Virus record (IMG/VR): IMGVR_UViG_3300031565_000172
Coordinates: 1-36,160 of that record
Length of the DNA: 36,160 nucleotides
Reading direction: 5' to 3' (one strand)
DNA from: a virus
The notes under the pieces were generated by a model that saw nothing but the letters and a program-made list of their open reading frames with translations, searched no databases and was not told the origin of the DNA. Below are positions 9,203-32,199 of this stretch, piece after piece (position 1 is the stretch's first letter; every line of letters begins with the position of its first letter). Made by a program: the position numbers and the translations under genes.

Positions 9203-10191
9203 CTACTCCAGAAGAAAATGTAACAACCTCACCCGAAGATCGATTTTTTGGCGTGAAGCACACGATTGGTGACGAGCCGAAAAAGACCGCACCCGTCGCA
9301 GATGACGTGGAAGTCGAAGAAGATATCGAATCCACCAAGGTAACCGTCAAGCCCGAAGCCAAGCCAAAGGCTTACGATGATGACGATGACGAACTTTCCA
9401 GCTACAGCGAGAAGGTTCAGAAACGTATCAACAAGATGACCTACCAATACAATGCTGAAAAGCGCAGAGCGGATGCTGCCGAGAAGGTTCGTGAAGAAGC
9501 TCTCAAGGTGGCGCAAAATCTTCACCAGCGTACCCAGCAGTATGAGGATGTCATCAACAAGGGTGAAGCTCACTTGGTGGCCCAGTTCAAGGGTCGTGCC
9601 CAACTGGCCGTGCAGCAAGCTCAGTCAGCGTACAGGAACGCTTACGAAAGCGGTGATACTGACGGAGTCATCAAGGCGCAGTCAGACCTGATTACAGCGC
9701 AGGCTGAGTGGCGTGAAGCGAACAATTACGAGGGTAATTACAACCAGCGTTCGCAACAGTACCAGAATCAGCGGCAATGGGCTGCGCAACAACGACTGGC
9801 ACAGACAGCAGCGAGGCCGAGCGTCCCTCCGCCAAGCTATGAGGCTTCAGCGTGGGCGGAAGAGAACAAATGGTTTGGTGATCCCAAGCACAAGGACATG
9901 ACTGCCTTGGCTTACGGGGTTCATGAAACCCTGATACGGGAGAAGGGTTTATCCCCTGACAGTCCCGAATACTTTCAGGAAATCGACCGCTCGATGCGGA
10001 CCCGCTTTCCCGAATACTTTGAGGGAAGTAAAACTACCTCAAGACCAAACACGGTGGTTGCCTCCGGTGAACGGAATAATGGCAGTAAGCCGCGCAAATT
10101 CAAGTTGACTTCGTCCCAAGTCCATATCGCGAAGAGATTGGGATTGACCAACGAACAGTACGCCAGACAATGCATAAAAGAAGGAATGTGA
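9199..10191 (+). CDS. Head scaffolding protein
   Basis: A 330-residue, highly charged, mostly helical protein without Cys. An acidic, disordered N-terminus (DDDDDE near residue 60) leads to a coiled-coil-like region (residues 70-200), a Gln-rich linker and a conserved helical C-terminus ending in LGLTNEQYARQC. Such composition and position upstream of the capsid gene are typical of podovirus scaffolds, which guide shell assembly and then leave. It starts by ATGA overlap with the GroES-like gene, linking co-chaperonin and scaffold production. Confidence 0.8.
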   Translation: MTTPEENVTTSPEDRFFGVKHTIGDEPKKTAPVADDVEVEEDIESTKVTVKPEAKPKAYDDDDDELSSYSEKVQKRINKMTYQYNAEKRRADAAEKVREEALKVAQNLHQRTQQYEDVINKGEAHLVAQFKGRAQLAVQQAQSAYRNAYESGDTDGVIKAQSDLITAQAEWREANNYEGNYNQRSQQYQNQRQWAAQQRLAQTAARPSVPPPSYEASAWAEENKWFGDPKHKDMTALAYGVHETLIREKGLSPDSPEYFQEIDRSMRTRFPEYFEGSKTTSRPNTVVASGERNNGSKPRKFKLTSSQVHIAKRLGLTNEQYARQCIKEGM

Positions 10192-10192
10192 T

Positions 10193-10645
10193 ATGTCAGA
10201 GCAGCGCAAATCTCGGGATTTAGACTCCCGCAAAGCCTCGGAACGTCCGAGCGATAAATGGGTTCCGCCGTCAATTTTGCCGGAACCGAACCCGATTGAA
10301 GGCTATGTTTTCCGCTGGATTCGTACCAGCGCACTCGGTCACGCCGACAACACCAATGTGTCCCAGAAGTTTCGTGAAGGCTGGGAGCCGGTGAAGGCGG
10401 AAGACCATCCCGAACTGCAAGTCATGTCCGATATCCACTCCCAGTTTAAGGGTAATGTTGAAATCGGCGGTCTGCTGTTGTGTAAAGCACCGGTAGAAAT
10501 TATGGCTCAGCGGGAAGAACACTATCAAGGCGTAGCCAAGCAGCAACTGGAATCAGTTGACCAGAACCTCATGCGGGAGAACGATGCCCGTATGCCACTG
10601 TTCCATGAGCGAAAATCAACACGAAGTAACTTTGGTAAAGGTTAA
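10193..10645 (+). CDS. Conserved head-module protein (150 aa)
   Basis: A conserved phage protein between scaffold and capsid genes; ribosome site AAGGAA lies at 10180-10185. Recognisable stretches are FREGWEPVKAEDHPELQV, GLLLCKAPVE and VDQNLMRENDARMPLF, which I recall from the same place in other environmental podoviruses. The role is not known to me; head completion or scaffold-related functions are possible. Its stop codon lies inside the left arm of a terminator hairpin. Confidence 0.7.
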   Translation: MSEQRKSRDLDSRKASERPSDKWVPPSILPEPNPIEGYVFRWIRTSALGHADNTNVSQKFREGWEPVKAEDHPELQVMSDIHSQFKGNVEIGGLLLCKAPVEIMAQREEHYQGVAKQQLESVDQNLMRENDARMPLFHERKSTRSNFGKG

Positions 10646-14521: not shown

Positions 14522-14766
14522 TGCCCAAGGCACGTAACTACGCCCACGAATACGCTTCGTACCATGCCAAGCCGGAGCAGCGTAAACGACGCTCCGAGCG
14601 TAATATGGCACGGCGTAAGATGGTGGAGGCCGGATTGGCCAGCAAGGGTGATGGCAGAGATGTTCATCACAAGAATCGTAATACTTCTGATAAGAGTTCC
14701 AAGAATTTAACAGTTATCAGCCAGAAGAAGAATCGTGGCTGGCGTAAGAACAAGCGAGGACAGTAG
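14521..14766 (+). CDS. HNH-like small basic protein (81 aa)
   Basis: The start overlaps the previous stop (TGATG). The N-terminal half is a very basic helix (RKRRSERNMARRKM). Residues 47-65 hold RDVHHKN and then SKNLTV, the pattern of the first part of an HNH nuclease fold (His pair at 49-50, Asn62). The final His of the HNH motif is not visible, so activity is doubtful or metal binding differs. Related small proteins recur in marine phages. DNA binding is likely from the charge. Confidence 0.6.
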   Translation: MPKARNYAHEYASYHAKPEQRKRRSERNMARRKMVEAGLASKGDGRDVHHKNRNTSDKSSKNLTVISQKKNRGWRKNKRGQ

Positions 14767-14767
14767 C

Positions 14768-15541
14768 ATGCCAATTAATTCACGTATAGACCCCCGATTA
14801 ATGAATGACGGAGCGGCTGGCAATCAGTGGGAACCCCCCATGACGACAGGGCCGATAAGCTATCCGTCCCCGTGGACACCTCCGTCTCCGATGCCCCCAC
14901 AGGGGCGGCCTCCGATGCCGCCACAGTCGAATCGTCCTCCTTGGGCCGGTAGTCCCGGCGGTCGTTTTGGTGAAATGCCTCGTCCTGACGGGCCTCCGGG
15001 CAGTCCGTTCCAGCCATCACCCTTGCAGACAGGTGGACTTGATCCAATGCCGCGTCCGATACCGGGGCCGATGCCGCCTTCACCGATGCCAACCAACCCC
15101 GACTGGTACTACCCAACGGGTGGAGCTGGTGAAGAGTTTCGGCCAACGGGTGGGGGTATGAGTATGCCTGTACCGCCACCAACACCCACGATTCAGCCAT
15201 CACCGTATCAGCCTTCACCAACGGGTGGAGCTGGTGAAGAGTTTCGGCCAACGGGTGGACATTTTGATAATCAAGTTCCGGTTGGCGGCTTCCCGACTCA
15301 GACATCACCTCATAGGCAGGCTCCGATGCCACGCCCAGAAGAGATTGGACAGGCACTCCAGCAACATTACGGTAGCAAGGGTGGTAATGCTTCACCCCCA
15401 CCTGCCCAATTCAGTGGACAGAGTCCGACTGCCGGTGGCAAAGGGGGTCAGCAGGCTCCGCCTTCCGGTGGTAAGGGTGGTAATCAAGGAAGTCAGGACT
15501 ACACCCCGTTGAGAAGCCGTAACGGTTACCGGGGAGGCTGA
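14768..15541 (+). CDS. Pro/Gly-rich low-complexity protein with GGKGG tail (257 aa)
   Basis: Unusually rich in Pro, Gly, Met and Ser, with no predicted globular core. TGGAGEEFRPTGG occurs twice, encoded by an exact 41-base repeat (15113-15153 and 15218-15258). The C-terminal part carries SKGGN, GGKGGQ and GGKGGN, resembling the end of the following protein. GAGGA at 14756-14760 precedes ATG 14768. Probably a disordered virion or assembly protein; function is unknown. Third-frame open stretches in the repeat area are composition artefacts. Confidence 0.65.
   Translation: MPINSRIDPRLMNDGAAGNQWEPPMTTGPISYPSPWTPPSPMPPQGRPPMPPQSNRPPWAGSPGGRFGEMPRPDGPPGSPFQPSPLQTGGLDPMPRPIPGPMPPSPMPTNPDWYYPTGGAGEEFRPTGGGMSMPVPPPTPTIQPSPYQPSPTGGAGEEFRPTGGHFDNQVPVGGFPTQTSPHRQAPMPRPEEIGQALQQHYGSKGGNASPPPAQFSGQSPTAGGKGGQQAPPSGGKGGNQGSQDYTPLRSRNGYRGG
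15113..15258 (+). repeat. Exact 41-base direct repeat pair inside the Pro/Gly-rich gene
   Basis: Copies at 15113-15153 and 15218-15258 are identical over 41 bases and 105 bases apart (35 codons, so in frame). Each encodes the TGGAGEEFRPTGG unit. Perfect identity at silent positions points to recent duplication. Confidence 0.85.
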
Positions 15542-17871: not shown

Positions 17872-18485
17872 TGGCGCTCAATTACACACAACTCACACAG
17901 GCTTTGCAGGACTATATCGAGACCGACGAAGACACTTTCGTTGACCAGATACCGATTATTGTCCAGCAGGCCGAAGACCGCATCCTGAAGGAAGTCCAGC
18001 ATCCGGTTTTCCGCAAGAACGTGACCGGCAGCACCACCGGTAACGACCAGTACCTGAGTATCCCGGCTGATTTTCTGGCCCCGTATTCACTGGCGGTGAT
18101 TGACAGCGGTTACCAGTTCCTGATCTTCAAGGACGTGCATTTCATTCGTGCTGCCTATCCGCTGGTCGCTGATACGGGTGTACCGAAATATTACGGCATC
18201 TTTGATGATGAGTTCTTCATTCTGGCCCCGACTCCGGCCACCGGTTACAACGCGGAATTGCATTACTTTTACCGGCCCGAGTCGATTGTCACTGCAGGCA
18301 CCAGTTGGCTTGGTACCAATGCCGAAGCCTGTCTGTTGTATGGATGTCTGGTAGAGAGTGATAACTTTGTGAAGGGCGATCCGGATATGATGCAGCGTTA
18401 TCGCACCGACTACACCGAGGCGCTGGGCAAGTTGAAGTTGCTGGCGGAAGGCTATAACCGTACCGACAGTTACAGGGCAGGCTGA
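17871..18485 (+). CDS. Phage adaptor protein (SU10 adaptor-like)
   Basis: A 204-residue protein starting YTQLTQALQDYIETD, with VDQIPIIVQQAEDRILKEV, a pattern of phage adaptor proteins (SU10 adaptor type) that form a ring below the portal in podoviruses. A strand-rich insertion follows (residues 55-135) and a C-terminal helix ends in YRTDYTEALGKLKLLAEGYNR. It overlaps both neighbours (TGATG at each end). It would link the portal to the nozzle protein. Confidence 0.75.
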   Translation: MALNYTQLTQALQDYIETDEDTFVDQIPIIVQQAEDRILKEVQHPVFRKNVTGSTTGNDQYLSIPADFLAPYSLAVIDSGYQFLIFKDVHFIRAAYPLVADTGVPKYYGIFDDEFFILAPTPATGYNAELHYFYRPESIVTAGTSWLGTNAEACLLYGCLVESDNFVKGDPDMMQRYRTDYTEALGKLKLLAEGYNRTDSYRAG

Positions 18486-18943
18486 TGGCATTTACCGGAA
18501 ACACCATTTGTGACAGTTACCGGCGTGAGCTTATGGAAGCTGCGCATGATCACCGCACTCATGTGTTCAAACTGGCGCTGTACACGTCAGCCGCCACCCT
18601 GAATGCTGCAACCACAGATTACACCACCGCTGGCGAGGTCAGTGGAACCGGTTATACGGCGGGTGGATATACCCTGACTTCGGTTGTTCCTGCCTTGTCA
18701 GGGTCAGGCAAGGTGGCTTTTGCGGGTTTTGCCGACCTGATTATCGAGTTTGCAACCTTTGTTACAAGGGGCGCATTGATTTACAACACGACGGCTTGGG
18801 GCGGGACTGGCACCACCAATGCAGTCATGGTGCTTGATTTTGGTTTGGACCGGACATCGTCAGCCATTGGGCCGGATTACCGGGACTTTGTGATCCGTAT
18901 GCCTACCGCAGATGCCATCAACGCCATCCTGCGCATCCAATAA
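18485..18943 (+). CDS. Structural protein, paralogue A (152 aa)
   Basis: A beta-type protein starting MAFTGNTICDSYRRELMEAAHD, with FKLALYTSAATLNAATTDYT, TRGALIYN and VMVLDFG. The protein at 19262-19702 shares this framework (MAFT, CDxxKRE/RRE, MALY, GALIYNN, VLDFG), so the two are diverged duplicates. I recall similar proteins in marine phage structural regions; function is unknown. The start overlaps the adaptor stop (TGATG). Confidence 0.7.
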   Translation: MAFTGNTICDSYRRELMEAAHDHRTHVFKLALYTSAATLNAATTDYTTAGEVSGTGYTAGGYTLTSVVPALSGSGKVAFAGFADLIIEFATFVTRGALIYNTTAWGGTGTTNAVMVLDFGLDRTSSAIGPDYRDFVIRMPTADAINAILRIQ

Positions 18944-18956
18944 GAGAGGTATTTTT

Positions 18957-19262
18957 GTGATTCAAACAAATGGCTCGACCGTCCAGTTAGGTACGGTCAC
19001 AGTAACTACAACCAGCGGACGTGGACTACCTATTGAACACTGGGCAGATCGATGCTTGGAGCGAATTATTCACGTAGCGGACAACAGTAACTCGATCCTC
19101 AAGGATCAGGCTATTGCCTTTAAAGACGACATTCGCCAAGTGCTGATTCATTACATCGCACAGGCAATCAAAAGTGACAGAACTACCCTGTACAACCTGC
19201 TGAGTCGGCAAGGTGAAAGGGAAATGGCGGCACTACTTTTAACTTTGACAGGAGACAGATAA
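18957..19262 (+). CDS. Conserved small protein between the paralogues (101 aa)
   Basis: GTG 18957 with GAGAGGT upstream. A short strand-rich N-terminus (TNGSTVQLGTVTVTTTSG) leads to a helical domain PIEHWADRCLERIIHVAD, IRQVLIHYIAQAIKSDRTTLYNLL. The helical part is a recurring phage family in my memory, next to fibre or tail genes, with no assigned function. The stop overlaps the next start (TAATG). It splits two paralogues. Confidence 0.65.
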   Translation: MIQTNGSTVQLGTVTVTTTSGRGLPIEHWADRCLERIIHVADNSNSILKDQAIAFKDDIRQVLIHYIAQAIKSDRTTLYNLLSRQGEREMAALLLTLTGDR

Positions 19263-19702
19263 TGGCTTTTACAGTTACCGCAATGTGCGATACATTCAAG
19301 CGTGAGATTTTGGCAGCAGAGCATGACTTCACCAATGGTACGGGACACACGTTCACCATGGCTTTGTACGACAATTCAGCAACCCTGACCGCCACTACAG
19401 CGGTGTATACGGCAACTGGTGAATTGGCCGATGCCACGGGCAACTATTCCCGCCCCGGCAAGACCTTGGTTAATGTCACCCCAACCCTGAATGGTACTCA
19501 GGGGATTACCGACTTTGATGATGCGGTCTGGTCCACGGCGACGTTCAGTGCGTATGGCGCATTGATTTACAACAACACCCACGCAACCGATGCAGCAGTG
19601 GCTGTACTTGATTTCGGTGGGGTCAAGACCGCGACAGCGGGTGATTTTACCGTCCAGTTCCCCGTAGCAGCAACCGGCACTGCGATCATCAGGATCGCGT
19701 AA
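19262..19702 (+). CDS. Structural protein, paralogue B (146 aa)
   Basis: Same framework as the 152-residue protein at 18485: MAFTVTAMCDTFKREILAAEHD, FTMALYDNSATLTATTAVYT, YGALIYNN, VAVLDFGG, and a closing AIIRIA. Beta-rich with many Thr and Ala. Two different but related subunits may occupy equivalent positions in the virion, or one may have a new role. It leads by overlap into the tailspike gene. Confidence 0.7.
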   Translation: MAFTVTAMCDTFKREILAAEHDFTNGTGHTFTMALYDNSATLTATTAVYTATGELADATGNYSRPGKTLVNVTPTLNGTQGITDFDDAVWSTATFSAYGALIYNNTHATDAAVAVLDFGGVKTATAGDFTVQFPVAATGTAIIRIA

Positions 19703-21402
19703 TGGCTACCACCATCACAGTAACTCCCGTTGATGTAGGAACCACGCCCGGTGACAACACGGGCGATTCTGCGCGGGTGGCATTTCAGGCGGTCAACGCC
19801 AACGAGGCAAACTTCAAAGCGGGGATCGAGGCGATCCGTGAACCGCTGACGGCCAACCGCACCTACTACGTCAGGACGGACGGTAATGATTCCACCAACG
19901 ACGGCCTGACCGACAGCGCGGGTGGTGCGTTCCTGACCATTCAGAAAGCAGTAGATGTGACCTTAGACACGCTTGACCAGCGCGGTTATGTGGTAACTGT
20001 TAATGTAGCCGATGGAACCTACACGGCAGGGATTAACGTGCAGCGGTCTTTGCCTAAGGAAATGTACATAACAGGAAATACTACGACTCCTGCCAACTGC
20101 ATCATTTCTACAACAAGCGCCAACTGCGTTACCTATGGTAACGGTGGCTCTATGGGTGGTCACCCATTGATCTTGTCTGGATTTGAGTTTCGCACAACAA
20201 CATCTGGGTTTTGCATCCAAAACTCCGGAGGCCATATCTCATTGAATACCGCGATCAGGTTTGGCGCATGTGCGTTATACCATATCTACAATGCTGCGGA
20301 AGGCTCGGTAACGGCACTCAATAGTAATTATGAAATTACTGGCGCTGCCGATGAGCATATGTTGTGTGCAAGGGGAAACATCGTCAGTAATGCTGGAACC
20401 TGCACTATAACGGGAAGTCCAGCAATTGGTTTTTTTGCCAGAGCGACTGGCAAGGGTTACATCTATAGCGGAACTACCTACACGGGTGTGGTTACCGGAC
20501 AGCGTTATGCCTGTTGGGAAAACGGCACAATTGAAACAACGGGTGGAGCAAACCATTTTCCCGGCACTGTTGCTGGAAATGTCATAGATCAGGGCATGTA
20601 CAACGGTATCAGCAACTACCGTGAACCGCTGACGGCTAACCGTACCTACTACGTCCGTACCGATGGAGTGGATACCAATACCGGACTGGTTAATTCAGCT
20701 GGCGGTGCGTTCCTGACTATCCAGAGAGCGGTGGATGTGGTGTGTACTACCATTGATGGCAGAGGCTATACCGTGACCATTCAGGTCGGTGCAGGGACAT
20801 ACACGGCAGGAATAGTGCTGTATCCCACTAATGGTCTAGCTGACACTAATGACTTTATTATTAAGGGCGACACCACTACGCCTAGCAACTGCGTTATTTC
20901 AACTTCTGCGGATTGTTTTACCGCTTTCGGTGCAAACATTTATGGAAAAATTGAAGGATTTAAGTTTGTTTCTTCAGCAGGCAGCGGATTATCTGTTGGA
21001 AACGGGGCTTTGGTGCATGTCGGCGCGGTTGAGTTTGGGGCTTGCTCTTATGCACACATAGACCTATATGATGCGTCATTGTCCATGACCGCAAACTACA
21101 GTATTACAGGTGCTGCAACCTACCACATTAATGCAGATGGAACCTCTGGCTATTACTGCATAGGCAGAACGGTCACGATGTCTGGAACCTTGGCGTTCAC
21201 CACCTTCATAGTTATGTATGACGGTGCTTACGCTTTTTGTGGAACAACGACTTACACCGGGGGTACGATTACGGGTCAAAGGTATGCCGCAGAGGTTGGT
21301 GGTATCATAAGCGGTACAGGTGGGTCATCCACCTTCTTCCCCGGTAATGCGGCAGGTGGTGGAACCGACTACAACACAATTACCGCAGGGTTGTATTTAT
21401 GA
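19702..21402 (+). CDS. Tailspike-like protein with two tandem beta-helix-type modules (566 aa)
   Basis: Residues 1-45 (GDNTGDSARVAFQAVNANEANF) match the virion-anchoring segment of many phage tailspikes. Then come two homologous modules, residues 46-306 and 307-566 (261 and 260 aa), each opening with REPLTANRTYYVRTDG and containing AGGAFLTIQ(K/R)AVD, G-YTAGI and ITGQRYA-type strands. The ISTT/FTI pattern and Gly/Thr/Ser turns suggest parallel beta-helix, pectate-lyase-like folds for binding or cutting a host glycan. No catalytic residues are identified. The start overlaps the previous stop; the end overlaps the next gene (ATGA). Confidence 0.8.
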   Translation: MATTITVTPVDVGTTPGDNTGDSARVAFQAVNANEANFKAGIEAIREPLTANRTYYVRTDGNDSTNDGLTDSAGGAFLTIQKAVDVTLDTLDQRGYVVTVNVADGTYTAGINVQRSLPKEMYITGNTTTPANCIISTTSANCVTYGNGGSMGGHPLILSGFEFRTTTSGFCIQNSGGHISLNTAIRFGACALYHIYNAAEGSVTALNSNYEITGAADEHMLCARGNIVSNAGTCTITGSPAIGFFARATGKGYIYSGTTYTGVVTGQRYACWENGTIETTGGANHFPGTVAGNVIDQGMYNGISNYREPLTANRTYYVRTDGVDTNTGLVNSAGGAFLTIQRAVDVVCTTIDGRGYTVTIQVGAGTYTAGIVLYPTNGLADTNDFIIKGDTTTPSNCVISTSADCFTAFGANIYGKIEGFKFVSSAGSGLSVGNGALVHVGAVEFGACSYAHIDLYDASLSMTANYSITGAATYHINADGTSGYYCIGRTVTMSGTLAFTTFIVMYDGAYAFCGTTTYTGGTITGQRYAAEVGGIISGTGGSSTFFPGNAAGGGTDYNTITAGLYL

Positions 21403-21989
21403 AAAAACGTAGCACAGGATTATCCAATCATTACTGGGTCGTTGCCGGATCAACTACTGAAGTCTATTCCAGTGCCGCTGGCGACTATGTTCCGGTCACT
21501 GATCCGACTTATGTTGCATGGCTGGACAATGGAACCTATGTCCCGCTGCCGGTACCGACACAGGCCGAGTGGGAAGCCGGACAGGCACTGGCTGATTACC
21601 TGCTGCCCACCGATCCTCCGCGTGATCCGAACGTCGAGTTCACCTTTGAAGATTGGCTGCTGACACAGGATGCCACGGACTCCTATGCCCGCTGGCAGGA
21701 AGTCAATCAGCGTAAGGAAGATGCCAATTATCGGGAATGGCAGGATGGGGCCAACGCGCCAAGTCCGGTGGATAGCGAGATTGAACTGGGCAGAATCATG
21801 GCCCAGCTTGACCTGACCCCAATACCCGCTGCTATTCTGGATGCGTTCAAGGATAGTCTGTCTGACAAGTTACCTGTAAGGCTGCTGTTTGAAGTGTTCT
21901 ACAGCCACGAAAACCGTATCCGTACACTGGAGGGATTGGGCAACATCACCAAGGCGCAGTTCAAGACCGCACTCAAGAATTTGCTGTAA
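21399..21989 (+). CDS. Tail fibre-associated protein (196 aa)
   Basis: An N-terminal part with HYWVVAGSTTEVYSSAAGDYV, then TYVAWLDNGTYVPLP and a helical charged C-terminus with LLFEVFYSHENRIRTLEG. The start is like fibre-attached or fibre-assembly proteins that contact spike C-termini. It is coupled to the spike gene by ATGA. A fibre assembly or accessory role is likely by position; it could also be a virion protein. Confidence 0.65.
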   Translation: MKKRSTGLSNHYWVVAGSTTEVYSSAAGDYVPVTDPTYVAWLDNGTYVPLPVPTQAEWEAGQALADYLLPTDPPRDPNVEFTFEDWLLTQDATDSYARWQEVNQRKEDANYREWQDGANAPSPVDSEIELGRIMAQLDLTPIPAAILDAFKDSLSDKLPVRLLFEVFYSHENRIRTLEGLGNITKAQFKTALKNLL

Positions 21990-22047: not shown

Positions 22048-24432
22048 ATGGCAACAGAAACCAAATATATTGATGGCGTAGTCTATTCCCTTACGGGATT
22101 GACGGGCGCGTACACCAACATTGATGACGACCCCGGTTCAGCCGACTCGCTGTGGGTTACAACCACTGCCAGTAACAGCATATTAAGGGCCAGCTTTCCG
22201 ACCCCGACCGATCTTCTGACACCCGGCGCGGGGCTGCAAACCTTCCGCTTGTGGGTACGCAAGGATGCTACCGGCGGCAGCGACCCGGCCATCGTGGTTT
22301 ACTTGCGCGAAACCGGGGGTGGCTCTAATCTTGCGACGGTCATCGCCTCGACCACCATCACAGTTGGGCCGACTACCGGCACTGCCGGTCAGTTAATCAG
22401 CGGTACATGGAACGCTTCGTTGCTTAGCGCGATCAGTGGTACTGGGGTCGAGATTTATTGCGTCTCAACCAAGGCCGGTGGCGGCCCGAATCTGCGCAAT
22501 GTAGAATTTGGCGCAATCGCTTGGGATGTCACTTACACCCCTTCGGTAGCGGTCACGGTTACACCAACAGGTGTCAGCGCGGCTTCGGCGGTAGGAACCC
22601 CTGCGGTTGGTGTGTTCAAGACCGTCACACCAACCGGGGTAGCGGCTACAGGATCGGTAGGCAGTACTACAGAATCAGGTAAAGCGGTAGTTACTCCTGC
22701 TGGCGTGTCAGCAACAGCCGCTGTCGGTACAGCCATTGCGCAGGTGGGCTGGACGGCAGACGCAGACCACTTCACCGTCGATGATGCCAGCTATCACACG
22801 GCGGACGGATGGCATGTAGACAACCCCGGTGCAGCAGGGGTAACGGTTACGCCTGCGGGGGTATCCGCGACCAGTGCAGTCGGCACGGTTACCGTGTCCG
22901 GCAAGGCGGTGGTTGTACCGGACGGAATATCGGCCACCGGCTCTATTGGTGATGTCACCGTTTCTTTACCCGCTGTTGTAACGGTTTCTGGCATTGCTTC
23001 AGCGGCTTCCGTTGGAACAGCAACAATTACCGGTAAAGCAGTTGTTCAGCCTACCGGAGTCTCTGCAGCATCAGCGGTTGGTACGGTGACGGTTGTTGGA
23101 AAAGCAATCGTTCAGCCAGCCGGAGTCTCTGCGGTTTCTGAAGTTGGCACACCAACAGTTCTTGCTGCCAGTGATGTCGCTGTTACCGGCGTTAGCGCAT
23201 CCTCAGAAGTTGGTGCTGTCACGGTAGAAGCGAAAGCGGTCGTGCAGCCCACAGGGGTCAGTGCAGCCTCTGCTGTCGGTACAGCCACGGTTGCAGTACA
23301 TCGAGACGTTGCGGTCACGGGTGTTTCGGCGGCATCAGCTGTTGGTACGACCACGGTTACCGGCAAAGCGGTGGTACAGCCTGTTGGAGTCACTGCCTCC
23401 GGTCTGGCGGGGAATGTATCGGTAGCCACTTCCGGAGCGGTCACGGTCGGAGTTAGCGGCGTTTCTGCGACCAGCGCCGTAGGCGCACCAACGGTTACCG
23501 GAATCGGTAACGTCACGGTGACCGGTGTAGCCGCCACTGGATCAGTTGGTAATGTCGCTGTTGCTGAAGCCAAGACGGTTACCGTTACTGGTGTAGAAGC
23601 GACCGGATCGGTCGGCAGCGTAACTGTAGATGCCGCTGCCAACATGTCAGTATCTGGCGTGGCGGCCACATCAGCCGTTGGAAGTGCCACCGAAACCGGT
23701 GATGCAAACATCCTTCCAGCCGGTGTATCTGCAACAGCTTCAGTCGGTGCCCCAGTCCTTGTAGGTCTGGGCAATGTAACGACCAGTGGCGTTGCCGCCA
23801 CAGGATCGGTTGGTTCAGTTACGGTAGTTGAAGGGGTCAGTGTCAGTTTCTCTGTTACTGGCGTTGCCGCCACAGGATCGGTTGGTTCAGTCACCGTAAT
23901 TGAGGCTGTCGGGGCTAATGTTTCGGTTACTGGTGTATCTGCCACAGGGGCTGTTGGTACAGCAACAGTCTCTGCCAAAGCGAACGTACTCGCCGACAGC
24001 TTACTGGCTAATGCGGCTGTCGGAACACCTTCGATACTCACGTCTGTAGTCGTTACGATTACGGGCGTTGCGGCAACGGGTGCGGTCGGTGATGTCAATG
24101 TTCTTGCCGGATTTGAAGTTGTAAGTGTCACGGGCGTTGGCGCGACCGGCTATGTGGGTATTATTGACCGGTATCCGCTGTGCATAGACCAGCCGTCACA
24201 GCAGGCGGCATGGATGGAGCTGACCCCATCTCAAGTTGCATCATGGGCTGATCTGGCCACCCTTGGCTGGACCGCCGATGCCAATCATTTCACCGTCGAT
24301 GATTCGGTCAATCATACGGCAGATGGCTGGCATGCAGAAGGCCAAAATACTGGCAACTCAAGCATAGAGCAGTGGACAGAAATTACCCCAACAGAAAAGG
24401 TTGCGTGGCGTGAAGGAACGTCCTGCAGTTAG
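22048..24432 (+). CDS. Fibre-like protein with 23 tandem 22-residue repeats (794 aa)
   Basis: Residues 1-171 are a Gly/Thr/Ser-rich N-terminal domain with TFRLWVRKDATGG and VEFGAIAWDVTY. Residues 172-706 hold 23 repeats of about 22 residues, consensus xVxGVsATgxVGxvTV plus a six-residue variable tail. Repeat 3 contains an inserted module GWTADADHFTVDD...HTADGWH (234-257) that recurs at 740-763 in the C-terminal 88 residues, which also hold WMELTPSQVASW and WTEITPTEKVAW. Such regular strands suggest a long rod or beta-solenoid fibre; no enzyme motif is seen. Position among spike and fibre genes supports a receptor-contact or host-surface role. Confidence 0.75.
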   Translation: MATETKYIDGVVYSLTGLTGAYTNIDDDPGSADSLWVTTTASNSILRASFPTPTDLLTPGAGLQTFRLWVRKDATGGSDPAIVVYLRETGGGSNLATVIASTTITVGPTTGTAGQLISGTWNASLLSAISGTGVEIYCVSTKAGGGPNLRNVEFGAIAWDVTYTPSVAVTVTPTGVSAASAVGTPAVGVFKTVTPTGVAATGSVGSTTESGKAVVTPAGVSATAAVGTAIAQVGWTADADHFTVDDASYHTADGWHVDNPGAAGVTVTPAGVSATSAVGTVTVSGKAVVVPDGISATGSIGDVTVSLPAVVTVSGIASAASVGTATITGKAVVQPTGVSAASAVGTVTVVGKAIVQPAGVSAVSEVGTPTVLAASDVAVTGVSASSEVGAVTVEAKAVVQPTGVSAASAVGTATVAVHRDVAVTGVSAASAVGTTTVTGKAVVQPVGVTASGLAGNVSVATSGAVTVGVSGVSATSAVGAPTVTGIGNVTVTGVAATGSVGNVAVAEAKTVTVTGVEATGSVGSVTVDAAANMSVSGVAATSAVGSATETGDANILPAGVSATASVGAPVLVGLGNVTTSGVAATGSVGSVTVVEGVSVSFSVTGVAATGSVGSVTVIEAVGANVSVTGVSATGAVGTATVSAKANVLADSLLANAAVGTPSILTSVVVTITGVAATGAVGDVNVLAGFEVVSVTGVGATGYVGIIDRYPLCIDQPSQQAAWMELTPSQVASWADLATLGWTADANHFTVDDSVNHTADGWHAEGQNTGNSSIEQWTEITPTEKVAWREGTSCS
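22561..24165 (+). repeat. Tandem coding repeats, 23 units of mainly 66 bases
   Basis: Each unit is 66 bases (some 69 to 72; unit 3 is 156 because of an inserted module). Units 18 and 19 are identical over 32 bases (23788-23819 and 23860-23891), while others differ at many silent sites, showing repeated rounds of duplication and drift. Confidence 0.85.
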
Positions 24433-24450
24433 GATCAATGAGGAAACATC

Positions 24451-25269
24451 ATGTCAAGTGATTACACAGTAAGTCTCGGTTTTGAAAAGCCCGGTTCCGG
24501 TGAACAGGCCGGGGCATGGGGCGACACGCTCAATCTTAATTTTGATAAATTGGATCAAGCAATCAGCGGATATGCTTCCGTTGCCCTGTCCGGAAATGGA
24601 ACTACCGGTGCGCCAAACGAAGTCAAGGTGAATAATACGACCATCCAAACGGAGCTTTCGGACGGGCGCAACATGTACATTGAGTTCACCGATGGTGGTG
24701 GTCTCTCGGGTGACGTTTATGTGCGGTTCACACCAGAGACCAGTAAAAAGATGGGTTACATCAAAAACAGTACAGGCTATGCCCTGTATGTCTTTCAAGG
24801 AACCTATGATGCGGCTCGCGATTTCGTAATTGCTGATGGCGATACATACTTGCTGCGCTTCAGCGGTGAAGGTGCGCCCAGCTCTACCGTAACATCCGTT
24901 GTAACGGCGACCGAGACCGTCACCAGCAGCCTGAAGCTGGCGGGTGAACTGGTCCATGCTCTGAACAACTCGGTGGCCATCGATGTGGGCAGTTACAACC
25001 GGCACCATGTCGCCTTCAATGGCAGCATCACGCTGACTTTCAGCAACGTACCTTCAGTCGCTGATGCTGATCTGGGCGTTACTTACCATAAGGAAGGCCA
25101 GATTGTCCTGTGGAACGGAGCAACCCCCGGTACGATAACCATCTCCGGTCTGGGCAGTTACCGGTCGGTGGGTTCATACACCACCGCAGCCAGTGTCACA
25201 CAGGTGCTGACCTACATCATCCAGCGTATTTCCGGCACCAACTACACCACGGTGATCTGGAGCAACTAA
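24451..25269 (+). CDS. Tail fibre or receptor-binding protein (272 aa)
   Basis: The N-terminus, SLGFEKPGSGEQAGAWGDTLN followed by NFDKLDQAISG, is a familiar phage fibre virion-attachment motif with the GAWGDTLNxNF pattern. The rest is beta-rich with repeated Gly and Thr (YVRFTPETSKKMGYI, GSITLTFSNVPSV) and ends in a strand-rich domain. It likely binds a host receptor or attaches the larger fibre. ATG 24451 follows GAGGAA 7 bases upstream. Confidence 0.75.
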   Translation: MSSDYTVSLGFEKPGSGEQAGAWGDTLNLNFDKLDQAISGYASVALSGNGTTGAPNEVKVNNTTIQTELSDGRNMYIEFTDGGGLSGDVYVRFTPETSKKMGYIKNSTGYALYVFQGTYDAARDFVIADGDTYLLRFSGEGAPSSTVTSVVTATETVTSSLKLAGELVHALNNSVAIDVGSYNRHHVAFNGSITLTFSNVPSVADADLGVTYHKEGQIVLWNGATPGTITISGLGSYRSVGSYTTAASVTQVLTYIIQRISGTNYTTVIWSN

Positions 25270-25270
25270 C

Positions 25271-27133
25271 GTGCCTCTGATCAAAACCAACTTCCTTCCC
25301 GGCTTCAGCAAGGAAGGAACCCAGTTCTCTACCGGGGCCAAGTGGTGGGACGGGGACAAGATCAGGTTCCGTAAAGGTAAGCCGGAAAAGATCGGTGGCT
25401 GGGTCAAGTATGCTGCTGGCTCGTTACTGGGCGTTCCAAGAACAATTCTGGACTGGGGTACGGCAGCCTCGCTGAAGTATCTGGGGATTGGAACCAGCCT
25501 GAAATTTTACGTGGAAACGGGTGGTGAATATTACGATGTCACGCCCCTGCGGTTCACGACAGGAATAGGCGATGTTACGTTTGCGGCATCCAATGGTTTC
25601 TCTACCATCACCGTAACCGATACCACCCACGGTGCGCTGCTGGGCGACTATGTCAGCTTTTCTGATGCGGAAGGTTTGGGTGGCTTGATTACCGCTGAAG
25701 TGCTGAATCATACTGAAGCTGGCTGGGTTGGTTACCAGATATCCAATATTGTGGATTCCAACAACTACGAGTTCATTGCGCTGGATGCGGCGGGTGCCAC
25801 GGTTACTGCTAATGGCGATGATTCGCTCACTGGCGGCACTATAGCGGTTGGTTATTACCAGCTCAGTGTAGGTACAAACACGTATGTCGGTTCGGTAGGT
25901 TACGGAGCGGGAACCTATGGCGAAATGCCATGGAATGGTTCAGTCAATGTTAACTTTGGGGGCCAGTTGCGGCTCTGGAGTCAGGACGCATTTGCTGATG
26001 ACCTGATCATCAATCCGCGTGGCGGAGGTGTTTACTTCTGGGATGAAAGCGATGGGGTAACGGTTCGTGCCATTCCGTTAACAGACCTACCAACCGCATC
26101 TGACGCACCGACAGCGGCATTACAGGTTCTGACCTCACCGGTTGATCGACATGTTATTTGTCTGGGCGTAAACCCTTTGGGGGAAGCATCCATTGACCCC
26201 CTGCTGATTCGCTGGTCGGATCAGGAAGATGCGGGTGACTGGTCACCAACAGCCATCAACAGTGCAGGTGGTCAGGTTCTGTCTTCCGGCACCCAGATCA
26301 TCGGTGGAGTCAAGACGCGGCAGGAAATCCTGATCTTTACAGACACTTCGATTCATTCCATGCGCTATGCGGGCGCACCCTACGTGTACCAGTTCGCAGT
26401 GATCGGTGAGAATGTGACGGTGGTTTCACCCGGTGCCGCAGTCAGCGCGGGTGATGCGGTGTTCTTCATGGGTTCTGAAGGGTTCTACGTGTACCAAGGA
26501 TCGGTTACCCGTCTGGTCTGTGATGTGCTGGATCATGTCTTCAACAACATCAACAAAGAACAGTATTACAAGGTTTTTGCGATCAACAATCCGGCCTTTT
26601 CGGAGGTGACTTGGTTTTATCCAGCGGAGACTAATGAAGTGACCCGCTATGTCACCTTCAACTACACCGAATTGATCTGGACGACCGGAACCCTGTCACG
26701 GGGCGCGTGGGCACTGGCACCCAGCCGCAGTTACCCAGTTGCCAGCACCAATAACAGCACGGGTGTGAACTACCTGTATAACCATGAATCCGGTTACGAT
26801 GCAGATGGTGCGGCGATGGGTGAATATCTGGAGTCAGGAACGATTCCGCTGGAAGACGGTAACTCGCTGATGTTTGTCAAACGGTTCCTGCCGGATTTCC
26901 GGATCGAGGGGACCGAGAACAACGCGAACTTCAACATCAGCATCAAGGGCAACATATTCCCGCAACAAGACCTGACCACCAAGGTCACCAAGGTGGTGAC
27001 AGCGAACACCAAGCAGTCACATGTCAGGGTCAGGGCGCGGGAGATTGCGGTACGAATTGAAGGCACTGGAACGGGCTATGGCTGGACCATGGGAGATTTT
27101 CGCTTTGACATGAGAACGGACGGAAGACGATGA
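25271..27133 (+). CDS. Tail nozzle-like protein (620 aa)
   Basis: GTG start right after the previous stop. The N-terminal block FLPGFSKEGTQFSTGAKWWDGDKIRFRKGKPEKIGGW is a recurring marine podovirus structural motif. The rest is strand-rich with repeated Gly/Asp turns, suggesting a beta-propeller; P22 gp10 and T7 gp12, the nozzle proteins, have comparable size, place and fold. Residues DLTTKVTKVVTANTKQSHVRVR near the C-terminus look like a final strand pair. Function is inferred by order after connector and fibre genes. Confidence 0.7.
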   Translation: MPLIKTNFLPGFSKEGTQFSTGAKWWDGDKIRFRKGKPEKIGGWVKYAAGSLLGVPRTILDWGTAASLKYLGIGTSLKFYVETGGEYYDVTPLRFTTGIGDVTFAASNGFSTITVTDTTHGALLGDYVSFSDAEGLGGLITAEVLNHTEAGWVGYQISNIVDSNNYEFIALDAAGATVTANGDDSLTGGTIAVGYYQLSVGTNTYVGSVGYGAGTYGEMPWNGSVNVNFGGQLRLWSQDAFADDLIINPRGGGVYFWDESDGVTVRAIPLTDLPTASDAPTAALQVLTSPVDRHVICLGVNPLGEASIDPLLIRWSDQEDAGDWSPTAINSAGGQVLSSGTQIIGGVKTRQEILIFTDTSIHSMRYAGAPYVYQFAVIGENVTVVSPGAAVSAGDAVFFMGSEGFYVYQGSVTRLVCDVLDHVFNNINKEQYYKVFAINNPAFSEVTWFYPAETNEVTRYVTFNYTELIWTTGTLSRGAWALAPSRSYPVASTNNSTGVNYLYNHESGYDADGAAMGEYLESGTIPLEDGNSLMFVKRFLPDFRIEGTENNANFNISIKGNIFPQQDLTTKVTKVVTANTKQSHVRVRAREIAVRIEGTGTGYGWTMGDFRFDMRTDGRR

Positions 27134-30747: not shown

Positions 30748-32199
30748 ATGTGTGGTGGTGGTGGAGCAAAAGATACCTATTCGGAAGTTAATCAGACTAC
30801 CTCCAACTTACCTGAATGGGCGCGGCCCTATCTGGAAGACATGTTGTCTCGGGCCGGGGCTGAAACTTCCAAGCCCTATGAGTCCTATACGGGTGACCGC
30901 TTGGCCTATTTCTCGCCTGCCGAGCAGGAGGCTATGTCCAGAGGGATTCAGCTTGGCGTAAGTGGAACCCCAGAGGAACTGAATCAGGCTGGCCAGATGG
31001 CTTACAGTGCAGGTCAGCCATTCGACAGTAACAACGACATGACTGATTTCAGTCAGGGTTATGGGGCGAACAGCAGGAGATCGAATTTCCAAGCGGGTTC
31101 ACTGGGCGGTGACGCTTATTACGACCCCAACTCCAGAGAATCCCAGTATGTAGCTGGTCAGATGGGTGATGGCGCAAATTATAATGCAGGTTCCCGTCAG
31201 GTCGGCTTTGACCCCGGATCACTGGCTGATGCTGAAATGCTGGCCAAGTACTCCAGCCCGTACATGCAGAACGTGGTGGACATCCAGAAGCGCGAAGCGG
31301 GCCGTGATGCGGACATCCGCAACAAGAACATCGGTCTGGACTCGGCAGGGACCGGCAGTCTGGGCGGTTACCGTGAAGCCATCATGCGTTCCAACAATGA
31401 GCGTGATGTGATGCAGCAGATGGGTGACATTCAGGCACAGGGCTTACAGGCATCGTTTTCCGATGCCAAGCAGTCGTTTGAGGCAGATCGGGCAGCGCGG
31501 GCACAACTGGAACAGTTCGGGCAATCCCAGTTCGGTATGAATGAACAGTTCAGGCAGCGTCAGGCAGAGCTGGTGCAGCAAGGCTTCTCCGCACAGGAAG
31601 CCTCCCGCATAGCGCAGGAGCAGTTGTCGCAATCGCAGTTCGGCATGAATGAACAGGCTCGCCAGAAGGCGGCTGAATTGGTGCAACAGGGCTTCTCTTT
31701 GGAAGAGGCTTCACGTATTGCGCAGGAACAGATGACACAGAGTCAATGGGGCATGAACATGCAGGACCGGCAGTTCGGTGCTGATGTTGGTCTGAGAAGC
31801 GCGGACCTTCGCCTGCAGTCCCAGCTAGGAAAAGATCAGATGATGCTGGCACAGCAGCAGAATCAACTGGCTGGTGCTGGCATGCTGGGCGATTTTGCAG
31901 CCCAAAGACAGGGTATGGAACTGGAACGTCTGGGCCTGCTGAGCAGTATTGGCGAGGGCGAACGGCGTATGTTGCAATCCGGTCTCGATACCGGCTATCA
32001 GGACTGGATGCGTCAACAGGCTTATGGTGGAGAGCAACTTAATCTGTACAGTAGTCTGCTGAACGGACTACCTATAACACCGGGGTCAACCTCATCCATT
32101 TACGGACCACGGCCAAGTACCGCAGAGCAGTTCATTGGCAATGGTATTGTCGGGGTTGGTGCTTATAACGCCTTCAACAAAACGAGTACTACAAAATGA
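30748..32199 (+). CDS. Internal virion protein with 36-residue helical repeats (483 aa)
   Basis: Starts with MCGGGGAKDTYSEV and LPEWARPYLEDMLSRA, an opening seen in marine phage internal proteins. Residues 260-331 hold two exact-length 36-residue repeats (SQFGMNEQ-RQ, AELVQQGFS, EASRIAQEQ) and a third partial copy. The following region is helical and Gln/Met-rich. The composition suggests a long alpha-helical rod like those of ejection proteins. No catalytic motif. The end overlaps the next gene (ATGA). Confidence 0.65.
   Translation: MCGGGGAKDTYSEVNQTTSNLPEWARPYLEDMLSRAGAETSKPYESYTGDRLAYFSPAEQEAMSRGIQLGVSGTPEELNQAGQMAYSAGQPFDSNNDMTDFSQGYGANSRRSNFQAGSLGGDAYYDPNSRESQYVAGQMGDGANYNAGSRQVGFDPGSLADAEMLAKYSSPYMQNVVDIQKREAGRDADIRNKNIGLDSAGTGSLGGYREAIMRSNNERDVMQQMGDIQAQGLQASFSDAKQSFEADRAARAQLEQFGQSQFGMNEQFRQRQAELVQQGFSAQEASRIAQEQLSQSQFGMNEQARQKAAELVQQGFSLEEASRIAQEQMTQSQWGMNMQDRQFGADVGLRSADLRLQSQLGKDQMMLAQQQNQLAGAGMLGDFAAQRQGMELERLGLLSSIGEGERRMLQSGLDTGYQDWMRQQAYGGEQLNLYSSLLNGLPITPGSTSSIYGPRPSTAEQFIGNGIVGVGAYNAFNKTSTTK
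31525..31740 (+). repeat. Two tandem 36-residue coding repeats
   Basis: Units at 31525-31632 and 31633-31740 (108 bases each) encode the same helical motif with small changes; a third, diverged start of the unit follows at 31741. Confidence 0.75.

Follow-up and report, generated by a model that had tools for sequence, protein, structure and literature searches.

A 22-residue repeat protein encoded in a podovirus tail module: predicted beta-solenoid fold and whole-unit length change in its family

The window, by which we mean the whole stretch of DNA that was analysed (36,160 bp), is a podovirus structural module. The features of the module and the parts of its 794-residue repeat protein, the subject of this study, are collected in Table 1. 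An identical copy of the protein is encoded in IMGVR_UViG_3300031539_001027 (L002). The gp10-like protein encoded further downstream matches 136 phage records. The antisense open reading frame at 23112-24131 was not counted as a gene; it reflects the period of the repeat. The upstream genes 18485 (phrog_644) and 19262 look like a duplicated pair, since relatives have one gene before the repeat gene and both match it. The spike-like protein (19702-21402) consists of two similar halves, each beginning REPLTANRTYYVRTDG, and had no relative among the fetched loci.

Table 1. Positions of the structural genes of the window and of the parts of the repeat protein.
Feature	Position	Strand	Remarks
Terminase large subunit gene	647		
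Portal gene	3282		
Major capsid protein gene	11330		
Tail adaptor-type genes	17871-19702		
Genes 18485 (phrog_644), 18912 and 19262	18485-19702	+	Homologous to genes just upstream in relatives
Tail-spike-like protein and companion gene	19702-21989	+	Between conserved upstream genes and repeat gene; beta-helix/spike reading by eye
794-residue repeat protein gene	22048-24432	+	Open reading frame
N-terminal non-repeat domain, residues 1-165	22048-22542	+	Occupies the place of the WG-rich N-terminus of most relatives
Repeat units 1-3, residues 168-233	22549-22746	+	
30-residue insert at units 3/4 junction, residues 234-263	22747-22836	+	Contains a WTADADHFTVDDxxxHTADGWH module
Repeat units 4-23, residues 264-713	22837-24186	+	
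C-terminal region, residues 714-794	24187-24429	+	Tryptophan motifs QQAAWMEL and QVASWADL, family-typical
Second WTADA(D/N)HFTVDDxxxHTADGWH copy, residues 741-762	24268-24333	+	Amid the tryptophan motifs
Fibre-like gene directly downstream of repeat gene	24451-25269	+	phrog_31104
gp10-like packaged-DNA stabilization/tail hub protein	25271-27133	+	phrog_3287, E 1.5e-66

The original prediction described 23 consecutive units at residues 172-706, and it placed these correctly at nucleotides 22561-24165. We found 23 anchors of the form G-V-x-A...V-G (residues 175, 197, 219, 271, 293 and onward to 447, 471 and onward to 581, 605, 629, 651, 673 and 696), so the count stands. The units are not strictly contiguous, since a 30-residue insert (GWTADADHFTVDDASYHTADGWHVDNPGAA) had been overlooked, and the degenerate unit 21 (DSLLANAAVG) had been missed. 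The units are tandem and take the form VxVTGVxATGxVGxVTV. The period is mostly exactly 22, as proposed: 17 of the 22 anchor spacings have this length, and the others are 52, 24, 24, 24 and 23. The autocorrelation at lag 22 was 0.352, compared with a maximum of 0.210 for the best of all lags in 500 shuffles.

The units share on average 52% of their residues over 17-residue cores. Where the shared residues are four-fold degenerate, their third codon positions match in 29.8% of cases, compared with 26.1% expected by chance. Because the residues are shared while the third positions are near chance, most of the units appear to have been duplicated long ago, with selection apparently maintaining the protein pattern. 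Units 18-19 are an exception, with 80% DNA identity; they sit within the only tandem repeat that TRF reported in the gene (23787-23962, 2.4 copies of 72 bp).

The 794-residue protein had no family match in Pfam, PHROGs or NCBIfam and no sequence match in the PDB, either by phmmer or with a profile. Weak Pfam matches to DUF4140 and Spt5 CTD lay below the curated cut-offs and were taken as composition effects, and a match of one relative (L018) to Pirin_C_2, which barely passed its cut-off and occurred in that member only, was regarded as chance. A tblastn search of the phage collection at 1e-5, a weak search under low-complexity masking, gave no match; at an E value of 10 it returned DSL-LC04 only. 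A literature search found no description of the 22-residue repeat, and none of the libraries searched has a name for the sequence family.

Given that alignment A2 was insufficiently conserved for a contig scan, we used a consensus peptide instead. At least 446 IMG/VR contigs encode relatives, so the earlier impression of a few marine phage proteins was too low; 80 of the 446 contigs were kept for comparison. Proteins of this kind are carried by hundreds of aquatic viruses. Applied to 84,980 bacterial and archaeal species genomes, the scan gave a single match, on a contig labelled Verrucomicrobia in a metagenome-assembled genome (MAG), with the gene order of these phages. Since this lone match is a phage contig within the MAG, the repeat is, at this sensitivity, nearly restricted to phages.

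The window repeats are 39-49% identical to those of relatives over eight units, ungapped, and the arrays of family members span roughly 5 to 33 unit lengths when inserts are counted as span. QxxxWxx[IVLM] motifs were present in all 47 distinct complete C-termini of the family, the window protein included. Of the other stop-to-stop open reading frames of the window, 2 of 106 had such a motif. Many family members have a WG-rich N-terminus, which is absent from the window protein and likewise from those of L039 and L073. As this feature is common and not universal, it was not treated as defining. The N-terminal domain of the window protein (residues 1-165) instead shares 46% identity with the C-terminal part of a 989-residue phage-contig protein (L095/L096). 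In two relatives (L036/L086) a glycine-rich domain lies inside the same family C-terminus (phrog_4474); we take it to be of a kind known from the adhesin tips of other phages.

Gene position was also conserved. Where the 80 kept contigs were long enough to show it, the repeat gene almost always lies between phrog_644-like and tail-fibre genes, with a gp10-like gene further downstream. It is preceded by homologues of the window genes 16823, 17437, 17871, 18912 and 18485/19262, and in L037, L048 and L049 it is immediately followed by a homologue of window gene 24451. The window has the same arrangement, with the spike-like gene and its companion intervening after the phrog_644-like genes. DSL-LC04 is a metagenome-assembled phage (PMC10611076), and its gene order is identical to that of the IMG/VR relatives. 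The repeat proteins of these podovirus contigs (WJZ48131.1 of DSL-LC04; L007-L086) share the unit, the tryptophan motifs and the gene position with the window protein. They differ in that many are WG-rich at the N-terminus and the WTADADHF module was seen in none, whereas the window protein has another N-terminus and two modules. The window protein thus belongs to this unnamed family by its repeat, its C-terminal motif and its position, though not by a WG-rich N-terminus.

An eight-unit HMM also picked up HTVC023P gp68, HTVC027P gp68 and CRP-902 gp53, all encoded in the tail module. Reversed copies of these proteins scored nearly as well or better, because the repeat unit is almost palindromic, and this weakens the profile evidence. 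Gene position makes the three proteins probable family members; in the cultured phages HTVC023P and HTVC027P, where gp68 is probably one of the same unnamed repeat proteins, the gene lies immediately before that of a 'putative tail protein'.

We compared the number of units between close relatives. L011 and L017 agree at 98.5% along 5.4 kb that extend into the repeat gene, with no shift in length up to that point. Further into the gene their lengths differ by 198 bp, made up of three 22-residue gaps. L018 or L054, compared with L044, shares 95-97% on either side of the gene, and one 66-residue block differs within it; the L018-type protein has 545 residues and the L044-type 611. A 66-residue block also distinguishes L012 from L050, along with three N-terminal residues. 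The difference of 66 residues, or 198 bp, corresponds to three units, and the flanking DNA is colinear and keeps its length. As phages that are nearly identical differ in the repeat gene by exactly 66 residues, whole units have been gained and lost, which supports the suggestion of an adjustable length. In more distant pairs the differences were not exact multiples of the unit, as expected when the ends change too.

We used AF2 to model an eight-unit segment with a 25-row ungapped alignment, and obtained a pLDDT of 73, a pTM of 0.69 and about three strand segments per unit. The full-length AF2 model was best around units 13-18, with pLDDT mostly 72-90 in blocks of ten, and its confidence was low at residues 1-270 and 710-794. 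VIA-align superposed both models on right-handed parallel beta-helices, with matches to the FHA secretion domain 1rwr (Z 14.0, rmsd 2.6 A over 161) and the HMW1 secretion domain 2odl (Z 17.3, rmsd 3.0 A over 266). Foldseek alone against the PDB gave a best E value of 0.06, which is not significant; against BFVD it returned two phage proteins of similar fold at 34-36% identity, one of which (34%) is a 'Glycine-rich domain-containing' phage protein. A left-handed helix was set aside: the left-handed helices LpxA and GlmU came first among the Foldseek matches, yet their superposition was at about 10 A. A match to curli CsgA (Z 26.5) was discounted for its rmsd of 8.8 A.

The models predict a parallel beta-solenoid with one unit per coil and three short strands, nearest to right-handed beta-helices. 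This agrees with the rod or solenoid that had been proposed, while the proposed single strand-pair per unit gives way to three predicted strands. The statement that no named fold was known holds for the sequence family but not for the fold, since the predicted parallel beta-helix has a name. A beta-solenoid usually rises about 4.8 A per coil, so 23 coils would give a rod of about 11 nm. As to the proposed fibre, the gene lies in the tail-fibre module, but the predicted length is that of a short spacer and not of a long fibre.

Beta-helices occur in podovirus tail modules in the P22-like, pectate-lyase-like tailspikes. The window protein differs from these in its near-exact 22-residue periodicity and in the whole-coil length changes; it had no tailspike family match, and the spike-like gene of the window is a separate one at 19702. 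FHA and HMW1, whose secretion domains resemble the predicted fold, belong to two-partner secretion adhesins, whereas the window protein is the product of a phage gene and its coils are far more regular. Searches of Pfam, NCBIfam and PDB sequences gave no match to a two-partner secretion-domain family. By analogy, and with no membership of their sequence family implied, the protein may work similarly to the beta-helix stalks of adhesins.

We consider it probable that the protein is a structural protein of the virion tail of an HTVC023P-like podovirus, in which a right-handed beta-solenoid of about 11 nm acts as a spacer between two ends. The virion location and spacer role, like the anchored end, the oligomeric state and the partner or receptor, are what we infer for it. 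The 22-residue units would stack one per coil into 23 coils, forming a stiff spacer in the short tail that would separate the N-terminal domain from the C-terminal tryptophan-motif region. The C-terminal region probably docks to the neighbouring fibre or the tail. The N-terminal domain is probably an anchor or a beta-sandwich binding domain; as the WG-rich N-terminus seen in the family is missing from the window protein, the anchoring role of this end is a guess. Insertion or deletion of whole units would alter the length of the rod and leave the fold intact, and extra modules would enter between coils or within the C-terminal region. More tentatively, and with the odds somewhat against it, the large and nearly phage-restricted family of regular 22-residue beta-solenoids could as a whole be the length-tunable tail spacer of HTVC023P-like podoviruses, with recombination adding and removing whole coils during adaptation to host cell surfaces.

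Most solved phage fibres are trimers, and the Gly turns and alternating hydrophobic residues of the units would also fit the three-chain shaft of an intertwined homotrimeric beta fibre, such as a triple beta-spiral or a trimeric beta-prism, to which every unit would contribute strands. We consider such a shaft unlikely, as in the prediction one chain forms a closed solenoid by itself, and the 22-residue, three-strand unit is unlike the roughly 15-residue repeat of the triple beta-spiral. A product acting outside the virion, for example a secreted or host-surface adhesin, would account for the secreted bacterial adhesins among the best fold matches. It is nevertheless very improbable, given that almost every kept contig has the gene within the tail structural module; moreover, the only match among bacterial and archaeal genomes carries the phage gene order, and no signal peptide was seen when the sequence was read by eye.

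The solenoid itself might be an artefact, with the array a flexible low-complexity linker. The residues V, T, G, A and S dominate its composition, and for perfect repeats AF2 has been documented to produce confident but spurious beta-solenoids, with internal charge as a warning sign (PMC11795689). We therefore tested the internal charge of the units, with the buried positions read from the alternation of the sequence and not from model coordinates. In 160 distinct natural 22-residue units, D, E, K or R never occurred at positions -4, -2, 0, 1, 3, 5, 7, 8 and 10, and position 12 was charged in less than 1%; charges fell mainly at -7, -5, -3, 2, 6, 9, 11 and 13. The hydrophobic residues alternate strictly, and units that are only 52% alike are not perfect repeats. 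The near-saturated third positions and the conserved protein pattern also point to selection on structure. The uncharged core and the degree of unit likeness argue against an artefact, short of proof, and we regard a flexible linker as less likely still than a trimeric shaft.

The rare, His/Asp-rich 22-residue module WTADADHFTVDDxxxHTADGWH occurs twice in the window protein, at 22750-22815 and 24268-24333. When IMG/VR was scanned with a DNA pattern for the first eight residues of the module, only three contigs matched, namely the window, L004 and L005. In L005 the module lies in a free 62-residue open reading frame (1908-2096). In L004 it lies within the array of a different protein with TQTYAVTGVD repeats of about 20-22 residues, as it does in the window, and that gene has a phrog_644 gene and a tail assembly chaperone in its vicinity. 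The L004 unit differs in sequence from that of the window; the likeness is one of layout. The module is possibly a mobile metal-binding one.

If the family were named, a conserved tail gene could be annotated in hundreds of genomes. Near-identical phages that differ by whole coils form a natural series in which a role of rod length in host attachment could be examined, and the regularity of the repeat, together with its uncharged core, makes the protein well suited to testing the prediction of solenoid structures.

Other repeat proteins were also seen. In the window, an ejection-type protein (30748-32199, phrog_4287) has 36-residue repeats SQFGMNEQARQKAAELVQQGFSLEEASRIAQEQ, and the protein at 14735-15541 has a repeat spaced by 35 residues PTGGAGEEFRPTGG. 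In L090 (MW202879), the gene at the same position (9703-10383) encodes a YG-rich protein with repeats of about 20 residues and tryptophan motifs, possibly a further variant.
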